Origin: an uncultured Clostridia bacterium | GTDB lineage: Bacteria > Bacillota > Clostridia > Oscillospirales > CAG-272 | Direction: 5' to 3' | Assembly: GCA_947631765.1 (NCBI GenBank) | Contig: CANRMP010000005.1 | Span: forward strand, 62,001 to 126,000 | Length of the DNA stretch: 64,000 bases | The notes under the pieces: model-generated | Seen by the model: the letters and a program-made list of their open reading frames with translations, nothing else | Database searches by the model: none | Told to the model about the DNA's origin: nothing | Shown here: positions 53,811 through 64,000 of the stretch, in pieces | Position numbering within the stretch: the first letter of the stretch is position 1 | Layout: every line of letters begins with the position of its first letter | Translations under genes and position numbers: made by a program

Positions 53811-55136
53811 TTACAGCAGAGAAAGCAACAGCAAAATCAGGAATATCCCGACAATTGCTCCGAGGGTACAAAGACCGGCAACAGCCCCCTTGAAGCAGGC
53901 TTTCGCGTTCCTTTTATGCCTGAATTTTTTGAAAATCAGTCCCGCGATGATTCCGAGCGGCGCCAAGAAAAACGAGGCGACGGAATACCACACGCTTCCC
54001 GTGTCGTGAAGCGGGATTTGCTCGAGCTCCTCGACCCGTACTGCCGTGGGCTCCTCTTTTCTCTCCTCGGCGTCGTACCTTGCCTTTTCCTCAGGTGTGA
54101 GAATCGTTACCGATTTCATCGGCTGATTGCTTTCACGTATTGCCTTATACTTTTCGATTTCCTCTTTGCTTCCGTAGACAAAATGGTTATGCCCGATATC
54201 GCAAAGCTCCGGCTCCTCCTTACTGTAGTCGTGCACCGACGGGTCGTAGGTAAAGAGCACCTTGTTCTTTTCAAGCTGCGGGTCAGGAATAGGAATAGCG
54301 GAAATCAGAGAGCGGGTATACGGGTGGAGAGGATAGTCAAACAGCTCCTCGGCATCTGCGACCTCGACGATATTTCCCTTATAGATAACTCCTATTCTGT
54401 CCGAAATAAAGCGGACAATCGACAAGTCGTGGGCAATAAAGAGGTAGGTGACTCCCCTTTCCCTTTGGAACTTATTGAGCAGATTAAGCACCTGTGCGCG
54501 AATCGATACGTCGAGCGCCGAAATAGGCTCGTCGGCAACGACAAGCTCCGGCTCCATGACCATGGCTCTTGCAAGTCCGATTCTCTGTCTCTGTCCTCCC
54601 GAGAACTCGTGCGGATATCTTGTCAGGTGCTCCGGCAGGAGTCCGACCTCCTCGATTATCTTTTCGACCTTCTTTACGCGGTCTGCCTCATTTTTAAAGA
54701 GGTGGAAGTTGTAAAGTCCTTCCGAAATGATATAATCGACAGTGGCTCTCTCATTGAGCGATGCGGCGGGGTCCTGGAAGACCATTTGAATATTTCTTAT
54801 GACCTCACGGTCAAGGGAATGCGGAATTTTTCCGGTGATTCTCACGCCTTTATAGAGAATTTCTCCGTTTGCACAGGGATTTACGCGTATGACTGCGCGC
54901 CCTATGGTGGTTTTTCCCGATCCGGATTCCCCGACAAGCGAGAAGGTTTCTCCCTTATAGATATCAAAGGAGGCGTTTTTTACCGCTCTGACTGCATTCT
55001 CTCCCTTTCCGAAGGTGATGTCGACGTTCTTTAAGGAGAGCAGGACTTCCTTCCCTTCGGCGTTGACCTGTCCGTGCTCCGGCAGGTGGGATGCGGTTGC
55101 CGACAGCGGCGTTTTGTTCTTTTTTTCTTTACTCAC
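53811..55136 (-). CDS. oppF: Oligopeptide ABC transporter ATP-binding protein (OppF-like) with C-terminal transmembrane extension
   Basis: [53 protein letters not shown]-terminal hydrophobic tail. GTG start at 55136 preceded by AAGGAGGGGAAGGCT. Confidence 0.9.
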
Positions 55137-56913
55137 AGCCTTCCCCTCCTTGAATGTTGAACGCATGAATCAGTTTTTCATGGATGTTGCGAATAATTTC
55201 CGGTCTCTCGACCTTCGGGGAGCGCGGGTCAAGGAGCCAGGTTTTCGCGTAGTGGGTATCGCTTACCCGAAACATCGGGGGCTCCTTCAAGGTGTCGATT
55301 TTCATGCAATAAGGATTACGGGGTGCGAACGGGTCCCCGATAATCTTATTATAGAGAGACGGCGGCGTTCCCGAAATGGAATAGAGCTTGGTATTTCTCT
55401 CTGCAAGCTGGGGCAGTGAGGAAAGGAGCGCCCAGGTATACGGGTGCCTTGAATCGTAGAATACGTCCTCGACGGTTCCGAGCTCAACTATTTGTCCCGC
55501 ATAGAGGACGGCGACTCGGTCTGCGATATTGGCGACGACTCCGAGGTCGTGGGTGATAAATACTATGGTATATCCGAAATCCTTCTGCAAATCCTTGATG
55601 AGCTTCAAAATCTGCGCCTGAATCGTGACGTCAAGCGCCGTTGTAGGCTCGTCGCAAATCAGGATCTTCGGCTGGCAGGAGAGTGCTATGGCAATAACGA
55701 TTCTCTGACGCATTCCTCCGGAATACTGGAAGGGATAGTCGTCAAAACGCACCTCGGCGTTGGGGATTCCGACCTTCCGCATAAGCTCAAGCGCGCGGGC
55801 GCGTGCCTCTGATTCCGAGCAGTTCTGATGCTTCAAAATTATTGAGGTGATCTGCTTCCCTATCGTCAAAATCGGGTTTAGAGAGGTCATGGGGTCTTGG
55901 AAGACGGTGGCGATTTTTGTTCCTCTTATCTGCATCCAGTCCTTGGAATACTTGATTTTTGCAAGGTTGAGAATGCAGGTTCCGTGCAGCACGGTGTCTG
56001 TTTCGTCAAGGTATTTGACCCTGAAAACGACGGTGTCGAAAACTTCGTTTCTCTTATTCTCGTTGTCAAGGTCGACCCCCATTTTCATGGCGTCCCGCAA
56101 AGCGTTTTCAAGCTTGTGAATAAATTTAAGACGCTTTCTCAGTCCGTATCGCCCTATTGAGAGATATACTTCCTTTGCAAGAACAGTATTTCTCTCCTTT
56201 TTCCCCTCGTCGGGCGCATCTGCGATTTCATTTTTGTAGCGTTCTAAAAGTGCTCCATGTTTTGCGGCGTACTCTTTGAGATATTCCTTGTCGGCAGACG
56301 CCGCTTTTTTGTGAGAAGCGGCGGTCGCCTTTTTCTCTTTGTCAAGGGCTTTAATCTGCTTGTCAAGCTCGTCGATTTGCGCCGACAGCTCCTTGAGCCT
56401 CGTTTTTTCGCGCGAGGGGTCTGCTGTCTGACGGGTATTGTAAGCTTCGGTACGACGGTAGAGCAGGTCGTCCCTCTTGGTCTCGAACTCCTTTGTTTCC
56501 TCATCGCTGAGCGAGAATTTTCTCTTTTTCTCGGCTTCAAGCTCGGTAATCTCACGCCATGTGGCGGCGCCCGGCTCAAGTCTTGCGTCGCGGTTGATTC
56601 TCTTTTCTATCGAGCGAAGGAGAAAACGGTCAAGGGCGCGGAGCGTGACCTTGGTATCTGCCAGCTCATCGTCGCTAAAGATTATTTTTCCCCCGTCGAT
56701 GCTTCCGTTTTCTTCAAGCATTCCGGCAAAGGTTTTTGTAAAGACGCTCTTTCCGGATCCCGATTCTCCGACTATTGCAATAGATTCGTTTTCGTAAATG
56801 TCAAGCGAAATTCCGCGTATTGCGGTCAGTTTTCTTCCACGGACGCTGAACCGAACGACAAGATCCTTGACTGATAGCAATACCTTGCGGTTTTCTTTCT
56901 TTTCGTTATCCAT
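55129..56913 (-). CDS. oppD: Oligopeptide ABC transporter ATP-binding protein (OppD-like) with ~225-aa insertion
   Basis: [67 protein letters not shown]; Lys/Glu-rich insert between Walker A and Q-loop. Confidence 0.92.
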
Positions 56914-56922
56914 GGCGGCCTC

Positions 56923-57918
56923 CTATCGGTGTGTTCTCGGGTCGGACGCGTCTCCGAGATTCTGTCCGACGACGTAGAGCACGACTGTGATAATTGCGGC
57001 AATGGCGGTCGGGCTCCAGAATTCAAATGCCCATGCGTGAACGGCAAGGTTGTTGCTCGCCTGTGAAATCATACGTCCGAGCGTGACGTCCTCTTGCAGT
57101 CCTATGCCCAAATAGGTAAAGAATACCTCGTACGAGATATAGGAGGGCAGCTCGGTTGCAAGAAGTGTGACAATAACTGAGGTCATGAAGGGGAGAATAT
57201 TGCGCATCGCTATGCGGAAGGTTGAGGTGCCAAGGCACCTTGAGGCGAGATTATACTCTCTGTCACGAATGATAATGACCTGCGTTCGTATGAAGTAGGC
57301 GATACCTATCCACCCAGTAATAGTCATAGCAAAGACCAGAGTCCAGAATGAACCGGTAAAGACCATGACCATAACCGAAATGACGAGAATATAGGGAACG
57401 TTTCCTATAATGTTGTTGACCTCGGTCATGATAATATCGACCTTCTTGGAAAAGCCCCAAATAGCGCCTATAATAACTCCTATTGTCATATTGATAGCGG
57501 CACAAATCAGCGCAAGGGAAATGGAAATTCTCGCTCCGTTCCAAACGGCGTCAAAGGTGGACTGTCCCTGCGCTCCCGTTCCGAGAAGCCATTTGAGCTT
57601 AAATCCGAGAGTCTCAACGGCAAGCTTTGGATTAAGGTGCGCGGTCGACTGCAAATTAGAGAGGTTCTCGAAAGCGTCGTATGGGAAAATCATCGGGTAG
57701 ATGTAGGCAAAGAGCACCACAACGGCGAGCAATGCAAGTATAACGATGTTGATTTTCTTTCTGAAAAAGACGCGGAAGACCGACTTCCAATAGGAATAGC
57801 GGGGAGCCGTGATTTTTTCCGCCTCCGCCTCGGAGTTGTCGCAGTGGGAGAAGAGCTCCTCCACGCTCATTCCGAGATCGGACAGGTCGGCAAGCTCTGT
57901 CTGATAATTCTGTTCCAT
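56923..57918 (-). CDS. oppC: Oligopeptide ABC transporter permease (OppC-like)
   Basis: N-terminal TM plus BPD_transp_1 pattern: EYNLASRCLGTSTFRIAMRNILPFMTSVIVTLLATELPSYISYEVFFTYLGIGLQ. Confidence 0.93.
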   Translation of the reverse strand: MEQNYQTELADLSDLGMSVEELFSHCDNSEAEAEKITAPRYSYWKSVFRVFFRKKINIVILALLAVVVLFAYIYPMIFPYDAFENLSNLQSTAHLNPKLAVETLGFKLKWLLGTGAQGQSTFDAVWNGARISISLALICAAINMTIGVIIGAIWGFSKKVDIIMTEVNNIIGNVPYILVISVMVMVFTGSFWTLVFAMTITGWIGIAYFIRTQVIIIRDREYNLASRCLGTSTFRIAMRNILPFMTSVIVTLLATELPSYISYEVFFTYLGIGLQEDVTLGRMISQASNNLAVHAWAFEFWSPTAIAAIITVVLYVVGQNLGDASDPRTHR

Positions 57919-57922
57919 GTTC

Positions 57923-59494
57923 TTACCTCGCTTTCTCCGTAAAGGAAATTCTCGGGTCGACGGCCGCCATCAGGATATCTCCCAAAATCAGCGACAAAAT
58001 CGACAGCACCGCATAGAATAGGGTGAGTCCGACGACGACTCCGTTGTCGTAGCTCTGAATTGCCTCGGTAAGGAGCAGACCTGCGCCGGGGACGGTATAA
58101 AGCCGCTCTGTAATAATGGCTCCGACAAGGGCTCCGAGGATGCTTCCCGGGATTCCGTGGACTATGGGAATGATGGCGTTTTTGAGAATGTGCTTTGTAA
58201 AGATTTCATACTCTGACAGACCTCCCGAGCGGGCGAACTTGACGTAATCCGCGTTCTCCTGGTCTATCATATAGCGCCTTATCCATTTCATCAGCGATGC
58301 GATGGAGGGCAGTGCCAGCGAGACGATAGGCAGGACGTACATCAGCAAATTCGGCATATCCGCCGTGAAGGTTTTGGGCAGTCCCAGCGAGCCTCCTATT
58401 TCCCTGAAGAAGAAAATATATGCAAGCGAGGGGACCGCAATTATAAATATAACGTAAACCGTACCGAGTCCGTCGATGAAGGTGTTCTTCTTTCTTGCCA
58501 TTAAGATTCCGAGCGGCACGCCGAGCAGATAAGCGGCAATGACCGAAATGATTCCTATGACAAAGGAGAACCCGGTGCGGGACATATTCGTTTTGAAATA
58601 ACTGACGTTGGTATAATCGTCATCAAAGCGCGCGGCGTTAATTGCCGTCGCGTCTTTTGAGTCCTTCACATAGGTTGCGGTGTGAAGGTTTCTCGGGCTT
58701 TCCTCTGTAAGCCCCGTCGCAAAGGTGACGGTTTTTTCGAGGTTCGGGTCCTGTCCCGCAAACATGGTATCGGTTATGGCGATGCCCTTGTTCACCGAAT
58801 AGGAGGTTCCGATATTGAACTTTAAGAGGTTCTGATGGATATAGGGAAAGCGGTCGTCAAAATAAAGCAGATAGCGATGCTCCGTTCCGTTTCCCATTAC
58901 TGCCGGGGCAAAAACCTTATTCCCCCCCCTATTGTATATGGGGTCAAAGAAGGTAAAGGTAATACCGGTGTCGGGCAGCTTTTCCCCGGTCGTTCTTTCC
59001 ACGTAATGAATATTGTCAATTTTAAAAACACCGGCAAAATAATTTATAAGCCGGGTATAAATCGGAATATCACGGGAGGCAAAGAGAATAGTCGCCTGCC
59101 CCGACGCAGTTTTGTCGCGGCGAATGACCTCATAGCCTCTCGATTCGTAGGTTTCGGTAAATTTTTTAACGTAAGTCGCGGTAACGGATGAATCGTCGCT
59201 GACTGTGGCTCCAAGCTGGGCAGCCTCGTCCCGCGTCTCCTTGGTGATTTCTCCCTCGTCAATGAGGGCATTTAGATATTCGCCGTAGCTTACATAATCA
59301 AGATAGCCGTATCTCTCCCATTGCTCGTACGTGTAGGTCACTTTCTGGTTCTCCTGCAGCTTTCGGTACTGCATGTCCGTCCGGAAAATGAGATCACGTT
59401 TCATGAGGGAGAAAATCAGTATCATGACAATGGTAACGACGATGACGACCGAAATCAGGCCGTGAAGAAGTCGTTTCAAAAGATATTTTACCAT
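57923..59494 (-). CDS. oppB: Oligopeptide ABC transporter permease (OppB-like) with large extracytoplasmic loop
   Basis: MVKYLLKRLLHGLISVVIVVTIVMILIFSLM; DYVKFARSGGLSEYEIFTKHILKNAIIPIVHGIPGSILGALVGAIITERLYTVPGAG. Confidence 0.93.
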   Translation of the reverse strand: MVKYLLKRLLHGLISVVIVVTIVMILIFSLMKRDLIFRTDMQYRKLQENQKVTYTYEQWERYGYLDYVSYGEYLNALIDEGEITKETRDEAAQLGATVSDDSSVTATYVKKFTETYESRGYEVIRRDKTASGQATILFASRDIPIYTRLINYFAGVFKIDNIHYVERTTGEKLPDTGITFTFFDPIYNRGGNKVFAPAVMGNGTEHRYLLYFDDRFPYIHQNLLKFNIGTSYSVNKGIAITDTMFAGQDPNLEKTVTFATGLTEESPRNLHTATYVKDSKDATAINAARFDDDYTNVSYFKTNMSRTGFSFVIGIISVIAAYLLGVPLGILMARKKNTFIDGLGTVYVIFIIAVPSLAYIFFFREIGGSLGLPKTFTADMPNLLMYVLPIVSLALPSIASLMKWIRRYMIDQENADYVKFARSGGLSEYEIFTKHILKNAIIPIVHGIPGSILGALVGAIITERLYTVPGAGLLLTEAIQSYDNGVVVGLTLFYAVLSILSLILGDILMAAVDPRISFTEKAR

Positions 59495-59654: not shown

Positions 59655-61784
59655 TCAGTTTCCGATATCGAGACCGTAGCAGACCTTCATGTAGCCGTAA
59701 GGCATCATGGTGTCAAGGTATGTTGACGGGTCACCGTAGTCAGGTCCCCAACCGGAGTTCAGCTGGAGGTCATAGTTGGCCTCAGTAGGACTGGTATAAT
59801 CGTATGTCGCGTATGTCAGGTCATCCTGAGATGCTTCAACGAGGTTGATGCGAATACGTCCGCCGGTCGCTTTTTCAATGGAGCTCTTGAGGATCTGAGC
59901 CTGTGAAGAAGAAACCGCACCGTCGTTTGTGTACGGGAAGTCGATGGTAACCGGCAGAGTGTCGGTTATTGTCAGTCCTTCCTTGGTGAGCTCTTCGACT
60001 GCCTTATCCATGTACTCCTTAGCCTTTTCGGGATTGTACCATCCGTCGTAGCCGGCAGAGCTTCCGAGACCGCCGTCTGCCTTAGGATCGTATGCTGTGA
60101 TCGGGGATCCGTCAGCGTCGATCTGAGCCTGGACAATCACGCCGAAATCGGTGCCCTTCTTGAAGGTCTTGTCGGTTCCGTTGATGGAAATTGTAACATC
60201 CTCGGGCATGGTAACAAAGTTACCGGGTGTATAGGTGTTAACCATAGAAACGTATTTGAGCTCCTCGCCGACAGCTGCCTGCATGTAGCTTGCGCGGTCG
60301 AATGCGAAGATAAGAGCCAGACGGAAGTTGGTGTTGAGCATAGCCCACTGGGTCTTGTTCTTCATTCCTTCTGTCTTGGTGGAAACAACCTTAGTAGAAT
60401 CGTTGTAGTTCGCAAATGAACGACGATGGAGGTTAAGGAAGCCCGGGAAGGTGGTAGCGTTTGTGCTGGACACATACGCGTATGTATCAAACTTGTTTTC
60501 TTCCTTTGCCTTAGCAACAGCTGCCGAGTTGAGTCCGGCGCCGTCGGTGAGACCCTGCGAGAAGAGGTCGTAGGACGCGGTAGCGTTCGACTGAGTGTCA
60601 ACCCATCTCATATTGATGGTATTGACTGTAGTGGAATCCTTATCCCAGTAGCTTTCGTTTTTCTTGAAGGTGATAATGTTCTTTGCAGTGCAGGTCTCGA
60701 TGATATAGGGTCCGCAGTAAGCGATGTTGTCCTTATCGCTTCCGTATGTACCGGAGGTAGGCTCCGAGCCGCCGAGCACGCCGCCCTTGGACTCAAAGTA
60801 ACCCTTGTTCAGAGGAGCGAAGGGAGAGTAAGCGATCATCGTTTCAAAATACGGGATCACCTCTGCAAGTGTGTAAACGACCGTGTAGTCGTCGGTGGCT
60901 TTAACTCCGACCTTTGAGAAGTCCTGGTCTCCGCCGAGATAGCCGTCAACACCGGCGATAACGCCGTTAACTAACTGTTCAAGTCCGCCCTTCATATCGA
61001 GCATATGCTGGAATCCGGTAACGAAGTCCTCTGCCTTGAGTTCTCCGATTTCCGCTCCTGTGGAGTCCACCCACTTCACGCCCTTGCGAAGAGTGAAGGT
61101 GTATGTGAGTCCGTCGTCCGAAACTTCCATCTTTTCGGCAAGCGCCGGCTGGAGGAGGTTGTCTCCGTTGTACTCCATCAGTCCGTCATAGGTCTGAACG
61201 AGGACGTCGGAGTCGACCGCCTTGGAGGTGGAGAGAACGTCAAAAGTTCCGGGGTCGGTTGTGTATGCGAGGGAATAGCTGTCCTGAAGCTTGTAGCCCT
61301 TGCTTTCAAGGAGCGCTTTCGCCTTCTCGGGGTAGGTTCCGGTGCCCTTGTTCGCCGCGTAGAGCGCTTTCAGTTCGTCCCGGTCTGCCGGCTTGATCGG
61401 GTCGGTGCAGACGAGGATCTTGTGGTAACGGGAGCTGTCAGAGCCCCATGAAACGGATGCGACGGTGTAAGGCACCACCTTTGAAATCGCATAGTTTCCA
61501 CCCTGTGCCTGAAGCGGAACAAGCACGCCCGCCTCAAGAAGTTTGGCTTCCGCAACTGCCATCAGAGCATAACGCTCCGAGATGGTCTTGGCCTGAAGGG
61601 CCTTCTGGTATGCCGCGTTGAATTCTGAGAACACTTGGTCCCATATTTCCTGGTCGGTTCCGAGTGTCGGTGCGGCTACTTCTTCATCGTACACCGGGTC
61701 GTTTTTCTTTTTGCATCCGGCAAATACTACAACTATCATTGCCGCTACAAGTAACAGACTCAGTGCCTTTGTCATTTTCTTCAT
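59655..61784 (-). CDS. oppA: Oligopeptide ABC transporter substrate-binding lipoprotein (SBP_bac_5), apparently circularly permuted
   Basis: Lipobox VVFAGCKKK; canonical SBP start motif (LAYTTDPGTFDVLSTSKAVDSDVLVQTYDGLMEY...PALAEKMEVSDDGLTYTFTLRKGVKW) only from aa ~168. Confidence 0.9.
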   Translation of the reverse strand: MKKMTKALSLLLVAAMIVVVFAGCKKKNDPVYDEEVAAPTLGTDQEIWDQVFSEFNAAYQKALQAKTISERYALMAVAEAKLLEAGVLVPLQAQGGNYAISKVVPYTVASVSWGSDSSRYHKILVCTDPIKPADRDELKALYAANKGTGTYPEKAKALLESKGYKLQDSYSLAYTTDPGTFDVLSTSKAVDSDVLVQTYDGLMEYNGDNLLQPALAEKMEVSDDGLTYTFTLRKGVKWVDSTGAEIGELKAEDFVTGFQHMLDMKGGLEQLVNGVIAGVDGYLGGDQDFSKVGVKATDDYTVVYTLAEVIPYFETMIAYSPFAPLNKGYFESKGGVLGGSEPTSGTYGSDKDNIAYCGPYIIETCTAKNIITFKKNESYWDKDSTTVNTINMRWVDTQSNATASYDLFSQGLTDGAGLNSAAVAKAKEENKFDTYAYVSSTNATTFPGFLNLHRRSFANYNDSTKVVSTKTEGMKNKTQWAMLNTNFRLALIFAFDRASYMQAAVGEELKYVSMVNTYTPGNFVTMPEDVTISINGTDKTFKKGTDFGVIVQAQIDADGSPITAYDPKADGGLGSSAGYDGWYNPEKAKEYMDKAVEELTKEGLTITDTLPVTIDFPYTNDGAVSSSQAQILKSSIEKATGGRIRINLVEASQDDLTYATYDYTSPTEANYDLQLNSGWGPDYGDPSTYLDTMMPYGYMKVCYGLDIGN

Positions 61785-61820
61785 GAAAAATGACCTCCTT
61801 TTTTTATTAGGTACTTGATA

Positions 61821-62776: not shown

Positions 62777-64000
62777 TCATATCGCCAAAGGTGATGCTTC
62801 ATTTTTTATTTTTCTTTCTTTGCTCGGGCGAAAGAGCAGATACAGTGCGAAAACAACCACAAGCGCCGCCGCGATGATACCGATAATACTTACGTTTCCG
62901 GTAAACAGTCTTCCGAACTGGTTGATAACAAGCGCTACAAGATATGCGAACACGCATTGATAGCCTATTGCAAACCAAGTCCATTTTGCGCTGTTCATTT
63001 CGCGCTTTATCGCACCTATTGCCGCAAAGCAGGGTGCACAAAGCAGATTGAAGGCAAGGAAAGAGAGTCCGCTTACCGTTGTGAACGCCAAGGCGAGATT
63101 AGAGTAAACCGAACCGCCTTCGCCGTAAAGAATACTCATCGTTCCGACAATATTTTCCTTGGCTGCAAGCCCCGTGATAGAGGCGACGACAGACTGCCAG
63201 TTGCCCCATCCGAGAGGAATGAAGAGCCATGAAATCGCGTTTCCTATCATTGCCAAGATGCTTTTATTTATCTCGTCATCCGCGAGCATTCTGAAGCCGT
63301 CCTCGGTAAATCCGAAATAGGTCGTGAACCATACGAAAATCGTGGAAAGCAGAATTATTGTACCCGCCTTCTTTATAAAGCTCCAGCCGCGCTCCCACAT
63401 CGACCTTAAAACGTTTTTGACTGTCGGCATGTGATACGCCGGAAGCTCCATGACAAAGGGCGCGGGCTCTCCCGAGAACATTTTGGTTTTCTTGAGAATG
63501 ATGCCCGAGCAAATAATTGCCGCCATGCCCATAAAGTACGCGCCTGTAGCTATCCACGGAGAGTTTTTGAAAATTGCTCCGGCAATCATACCGATAAAGG
63601 GTATTTTTGCACTGCATGGGATAAATGTGGTTGTCATGACAGTCATGCGGCGGTCGCGCTCGTTTTCGATGGTACGCGACGCCATAATGCCGGGAACTCC
63701 GCAGCCCGTTCCGATAAGCACGGGTATAAACGATTTGCCCGAAAGACCGAACTTTCTGAAAATTCTGTCCATGACAAAGGCGATACGCGCCATATAGCCG
63801 CACGCCTCAAGAAAGGCAAGGAGAATAAACAGCACAAGCATTTGAGGCACAAAGCCGAGAACCGCGCCGACTCCGGCAATTATACCGTCAAGAATCAGCC
63901 CGCAGAGCCACTTTTCGCAATTAATGGCGTCAAGCCCCTTTTCAACAAGAACCGGAATACCGGGCACCCACACTCCGTAGCTTGCTGGGTCGGGCGCGCT
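62777..64000 (-). CDS. feoB: Ferrous iron transport protein B (C-terminal part; 5' end outside window)
   Basis: FVPQMLVLFILLAFLEACGYMARIAFVMDRIFRKFGLSGKSFIPVLIGTGCGVPGIMASRTIENERDRRMTVMTTTFIPCSAKIPFI. Confidence 0.95.
   Translation of the reverse strand, partial: SAPDPASYGVWVPGIPVLVEKGLDAINCEKWLCGLILDGIIAGVGAVLGFVPQMLVLFILLAFLEACGYMARIAFVMDRIFRKFGLSGKSFIPVLIGTGCGVPGIMASRTIENERDRRMTVMTTTFIPCSAKIPFIGMIAGAIFKNSPWIATGAYFMGMAAIICSGIILKKTKMFSGEPAPFVMELPAYHMPTVKNVLRSMWERGWSFIKKAGTIILLSTIFVWFTTYFGFTEDGFRMLADDEINKSILAMIGNAISWLFIPLGWGNWQSVVASITGLAAKENIVGTMSILYGEGGSVYSNLALAFTTVSGLSFLAFNLLCAPCFAAIGAIKREMNSAKWTWFAIGYQCVFAYLVALVINQFGRLFTGNVSIIGIIAAALVVVFALYLLFRPSKERKIKNEASPLAI

Follow-up and report, generated by a model that had tools for sequence, protein, structure and literature searches.

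The window, that is, the whole 64,000-nucleotide stretch of DNA that we analysed from a gut bacterium, encodes on its minus strand a 709-aa lipoprotein that is circularly permuted, as comparison of its sequence with canonical relatives confirmed. This protein very probably takes the OppA/AmiA role in an oligopeptide ABC importer of the Ami/Opp type, as a naturally permuted receptor whose moved segment most likely sits in its usual place. By sequence, the ~110 residues that end the canonical chain (the end of Domain III, the third piece of Domain I and the terminal helix region) lie behind the lipobox, joined to the old mature N-terminus, and the chain stops where that block begins in the canonical order. 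The gene and its parts are as follows.

59655..61784, minus strand: oppA-like gene for the permuted SBP_bac_5 lipoprotein, 709 aa, ATG start (ORF, Pfam PF00496, permutation matches)
61794..61799 (about), minus strand: Shine-Dalgarno AGGAGG, 5' of the ATG (read in the sequence)
61713..61784, minus strand: signal peptide and lipobox FAGC, aa 1-24, Cys24 (sequence)
61653..61712, minus strand: variable tether from Cys24 to the displaced segment, aa 25-44 (homologue comparison)
61503..61652, minus strand: displaced canonical C-terminal segment, Domain III / lobe 2 part, aa 45-94 (AliD alignment, domain limits of PMC11192437)
61395..61502, minus strand: displaced segment, part from the third piece of Domain I, aa 95-130 (AliD alignment)
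61287..61394, minus strand: former C-terminal helix region fused to the former N-terminus, aa 131-166 (AF2 helices, homologue identity)
59658..61286, minus strand: core, from the former mature N-terminus through Domains I-II-III, aa 167-709 (profile and PDB matches)
59739..59750, minus strand: W679-G-P-D682, counterpart of AliD W498/D501 and AliB W500/D503 (alignment)

The new C-terminus of the core reads ...GYMKVCYGLDIGN. Pfam recognised the core as SBP_bac_5 (PF00496; 172.3 bits against a gathering cut-off of 32.4, E 2e-50), matching aa 211-693 to positions 2-360 of 368, and left aa 1-164 unrecognised. PF00496 does not demand the canonical order beyond its 368 positions, and the permuted protein is thus a variant within SBP_bac_5. 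By phmmer it is the sole protein of its kind in its genome. The assembly holds two SBP_bac_5 proteins; the other (L105, G000:C18:25755-26861) is canonical in order and distant, far from the Ami type.

Searches of the PDB with phmmer placed aa 167-692 on chain residues 11-492 of AliC and aa 41-111 on chain residues 508-580. The order was swapped likewise against AmiA, AliD and AliB, with E-values from 1e-69 to 1e-75 across the four Ami/Ali proteins: in each, aa ~167-693 covered the chain up to about residue 490-500, and residues beyond ~505 were matched by a stretch inside aa 41-141. The initial annotation had placed the displaced segment at aa 48-127 and the canonical start at about aa 168, limits that these matches showed to be correct to a few residues; the residues it quoted are present in the ORF. 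Its reference relatives were less well chosen, as the nearest proteins are oligopeptide-binding proteins of the Ami/Ali group, and not DppA or the OppA of E. coli.

Matches of the segment to single solved sequences were weak (c-Evalues 6e-8 to 3e-5), and we therefore made a profile from canonical proteins. This HMM (model length 601) was built from 18 canonical proteins and zero permuted sequences. It matched aa 163-695 to model positions 15-477 with 374 bits and aa 37-145 to positions 482-592 with 46.8 bits, which bears out the proposed resemblance of aa ~48-127 to the C-terminal segment of SBPs. Together, the two swapped blocks tile positions 15-592 of the model. When the first block was moved to the end, the alignment became one collinear match over positions 20-591 with 427.5-427.9 bits, and when the moved block was shuffled (200 versions) the rotated score dropped to 371 +/- 1.3 bits (maximum 378). 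Rotation also raised the score above that of the native order for 57 of the 58 permuted records, a set with a few loci in duplicate. This showed that the first part of the protein is homologous to the last part of its relatives and vice versa, with full coverage on rotation.

The oppA-like gene is the first of an oppABCDF operon, whose remaining genes are listed here together with the coding region that runs past the window end.

57923..59494, minus strand: oppB permease, 523 aa, with a long N-terminal extracytoplasmic part like AmiC (PF00528 only over aa 325-517)
56923..57918, minus strand: oppC permease (PF00528 and PF12911)
55129..56913, minus strand: oppD ATPase (PF00005 and PF08352; NF043079 709.7 bits, cut-off 740)
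53811..55166, minus strand: oppF ATPase (PF00005 and PF08352; best NCBIfam match NF043078)
62777-64000, minus strand: C-terminal part of a FeoB-type ferrous iron transporter

Because oppB, oppC, oppD and oppF follow on the same strand, we take the oppA-like gene to encode the receptor in an importer of oligopeptides. Both ATPases look long: in OppD (594 aa) a large insert separates the two halves of the ATPase domain, and OppF (451 aa) is extended at its C-terminus, where the added part closes with hydrophobic stretches. In NCBIfam, OppC, OppD and OppF each matched best to the model of an Opp protein from the minimal cell (MMSYN1), and all three scores stayed under the cut-off. We also considered Mycoplasma-type OppA as a permuted relative and rejected it: the core falls on the early part of NF043077 and the moved segment on positions 783-861 of 896 (weak, E 0.01), which makes the Mycoplasma-type protein canonical in order.

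Homologues were collected from about 1,700 genomes that were searched and one collection scan; those with usable cores comprise 65 distinct permuted proteins and 27 canonical ones. The initial annotation had asked how widespread the arrangement is in Clostridia; within the window's class, group-coded families with permuted forms number at least nine (f1, f13, f14, f16, f17, f23, f26, f39 and f52), and permuted forms also occur in a Bacilli order that we reached via an 'uncultured Bacilli' MAG (L023; L113-L125). Wherever the locus has enough flank, oppBCDF follows the permuted gene, with oppB adjoining it. Across the permuted homologues, mean identity was 47-50% in the displaced segment, 47% in the junction (aa 131-166) and 50.5% in the core, against 17% in the tether from the Cys to the segment, which is 20-92 aa long. 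W113, G114, D116 and R119 of the displaced segment are invariant or nearly so, and the counterparts of W679 and D682 are invariant in 49 permuted homologues. The C-termini, copies cut by contig ends aside, fall 1-4 residues from one common position. No genome with a permuted and a canonical copy together was seen among these 65 permuted and 27 canonical homologues, and the fetched ORFs included no intermediate with the segment at both ends. In one genome (G1376) the permuted gene is apparently split over two contig ends, C37 1-1776 (L021) and C34 6-323 (L112); the C34 fragment, which lies at the contig end, probably represents the N-terminal block that L021 lacks.

Canonical sisters of the permuted proteins were found close by. 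Three homologues from the window's own family (L056, L057 and L059) are canonical, as are L126, L130 and L131 from the Bacilli order; L127, from the same order, has a canonical-like start and is cut by a contig end before the C-terminal segment. In BLASTP, canonical L130 matched permuted L128 in swapped order, with 49% identity over 561 aa (E 0) and 60% over 123 aa (E 5e-42), and after rotation with 52.5% over 669 aa. Canonical L126 likewise matched the window protein in swapped order, with 38.6% identity over 547 aa and 27% over 136 aa (E 6e-11). The L128/L130 pair also resolves the junction: L130 ends ...AVTDEYNAGK and L128 reads ...AVTAAYEAGK-SATPDTTPDK-DGWISLANA..., of which the DGWISLANA part corresponds to a stretch near the N-terminus of L130. 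In L128, both old termini are thus linked through about ten residues. The circularly permuted reading is accordingly supported by rotation of the HMM, by dozens of homologues with the same arrangement and by these canonical sisters.

A tree of 50 cores required at least two topology changes. Canonical L130 grouped with permuted L128/L129 at 100/100, a single change sufficed in 0 of 200 bootstrap trees, and a tree with all permuted copies forced into one clade was rejected (delta lnL 252, p-AU 3.4e-7). The AU test therefore indicates two or more changes of chain order at one and the same position, with the second change read from a three-protein clade in a core tree with long branches. One permutation event could instead account for all cases if the scattered tree position of L128/L129 were an artefact. 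The cut site is identical in both groups, and our earlier tree, which lacked the Bacilli sample, had all permuted copies on one side of a branch with support 84, as a single event would have it. Addition of the Bacilli order overturned this one-origin picture, and given the AU result and the bootstrap trees we consider a single event unlikely. At least two changes at one site thus appear in the tree, and they may be either two gains, or one gain and a reversal in L130.

We then compared the protein with the known structures. AF2 gave a pLDDT of 33 from the single sequence, and of 69.3 with pTM 0.62 from a 7-row alignment. Foldseek aligned the core of this model to AliD, AliB and AmiA (query-length TM 0.56-0.61, E ~1e-28); it preserves chain order, so that the moved segment could not be aligned in this way. 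The domains were instead assigned by alignment with AliD, in which Domain III spans residues 297-582, Domain I consists of the pieces 29-63, 191-296 and 583-617, and the C-terminal helix spans 622-652 (PMC11192437). AliD residue numbers equal the chain index + 25, W498/D501 being chain W473/D476. The boundary between Domains III and I fell at aa ~94/95, so that aa 45-94 count as lobe 2 and aa 95-130 as Domain I of lobe 1, followed by the old terminal helix region at aa 131-166. In this last stretch, which is now internal, AF2 predicted two helices (132-145 and 151-161), possible counterparts of the extra C-terminal helix alpha-19 of Ami/Ali proteins. Within the moved segment, W113 and S118, beside G114 and D116, take the alignment positions of I603 and N608 in the AliD pocket, and the segment should therefore be needed for the putative binding site. 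In the core, W679/D682 align with AliD W498/D501; this Trp/Asp pair binds the peptide N-terminus in AliD, as do W500/D503 in AliB (PMC11192437).

Three other explanations of the swapped order were weighed. An assembly error or a single broken gene would make it a biologically meaningless local rearrangement in one MAG, and the genome is indeed a 21-contig assembly and the named homologue records are MAGs as well. The same order nevertheless recurs with intact ORFs in 65 distinct sequences from many independent assemblies, with cut site and operon context conserved, and this leaves an artefact a practically negligible chance. Alternatively, a C-terminally truncated SBP might have been fused to a foreign N-terminal domain that lies outside the fold, with another polypeptide completing the clamp. 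This would suit a region of 164 residues that Pfam does not see and whose position in three dimensions is read from sequence. The canonical-only profile, however, identifies the segment as a homologue of the C-terminus of SBPs; it is conserved like the core, carries the residues aligned with the AliD pocket, and stands at opposite ends in L128 and L130 at 60% identity, all of which makes a fusion extremely improbable.

The moved segment might also complete a neighbouring molecule, giving a domain-swapped dimer in place of a permuted monomer. AliC, the closest solved relative, does crystallise domain-swapped, but it exchanges whole lobes at residues 290-294 and not the C-terminal segment (PMC11192437). 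Moreover, the junction at aa 131-166 is core-like in conservation and has two predicted helices, as would be expected for a fixed intramolecular connection, and complementation between molecules is therefore very unlikely. We thus favour the permuted monomer, in which the segment most likely folds in its usual place. The two-lobed clamp and the peptide-amine site at W679/D682 would then be retained, and peptides would be passed to OppBC as usual.

The closest solved sequences, Streptococcus pneumoniae AmiA, AliB, AliC and AliD, share the peptide-amine W/D pair and belong to the same type of transporter, with two permeases and two ATPases, including a large AmiC-like permease (the 523-aa OppB in the window). 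Their chains run Domain I-II-I-III-I followed by the C-terminal helix (PMC11192437), whereas the window protein has the last part of that chain at its front, the helix region in its interior and the lipid anchor ahead of an element of lobe 2. OppA and DppA (PF00496) belong to the same Pfam family over the core and to the same fold class, but have the canonical order and about 16-22% identity in Foldseek matches. A naturally permuted, lipid-tethered SBP of an ABC importer with homologues in Gram-positive bacteria is known from Treponema pallidum, in the glucose-binding lipoprotein TpMglB-2 (Tp0684), whose authors proposed a permuted subclass (cluster Bc) and suggested a link to tethering (PMC4990184). 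TpMglB-2 binds sugar and belongs to Type I / cluster B, with the first three strands of its N-lobe near the C-terminus (PMC4990184); the window protein, in contrast, belongs to the SBP_bac_5 peptide family and has its C-terminal segment moved to the N-terminus. It lacks the Type I / cluster B sugar-binding fold, and its sequence and fold matches are of the SBP_bac_5 type, with peptide-binding proteins leading. Our search of the open-access literature, with subscription papers outside its scope, found no report of a permuted SBP of the peptide family. The window protein extends the class of permuted solute-binding proteins from the sugar family to the peptide family.

The permutation probably arose by tandem duplication of oppA followed by trimming, which is the route proposed earliest and a standard one (PMC3320104). 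The initial annotation had assumed that both termini lie in the same lobe. This did not hold for the new N-terminus, which by the AliD alignment lies outside the lobe of the old termini, since the cut is in Domain III (lobe 2). With the old termini fused and the new N-terminus in lobe 2, the lipid anchor has probably shifted from lobe 1 to lobe 2. According to a predicted Ami complex, ECD2 of AmiC touches lobe 1 only and AmiD touches lobe 2 (PMC11192437), so that, speculatively, a receptor anchored by the other lobe could dock differently on the permease; as the tether is flexible and 20-92 residues long, it may dampen such an effect. We offer only tentatively, as a possibility that is more doubtful than probable, that the chain order toggles at one fixed site because relocating the tether from lobe 1 to lobe 2 alters this docking. 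If true, recurrent permutation would be an adaptive way of re-aiming a tethered receptor.

Most known cases of natural circular permutation are ancient and set apart proteins that are distant from each other. In the present case, permuted and canonical forms at about 50% identity, from the same family and the same kind of operon, provide natural matched pairs, in which the effects of permutation on folding, tethering and transport can be addressed. Annotation tools would call such proteins ordinary OppA and leave about 165 residues unexplained. The small Bacilli lineage in which L128/L129 are permuted and L130/L131 canonical, with L128/L129 about 50% identical to L130, is, together with L126/L127, the best place to determine the direction and number of the permutation events.
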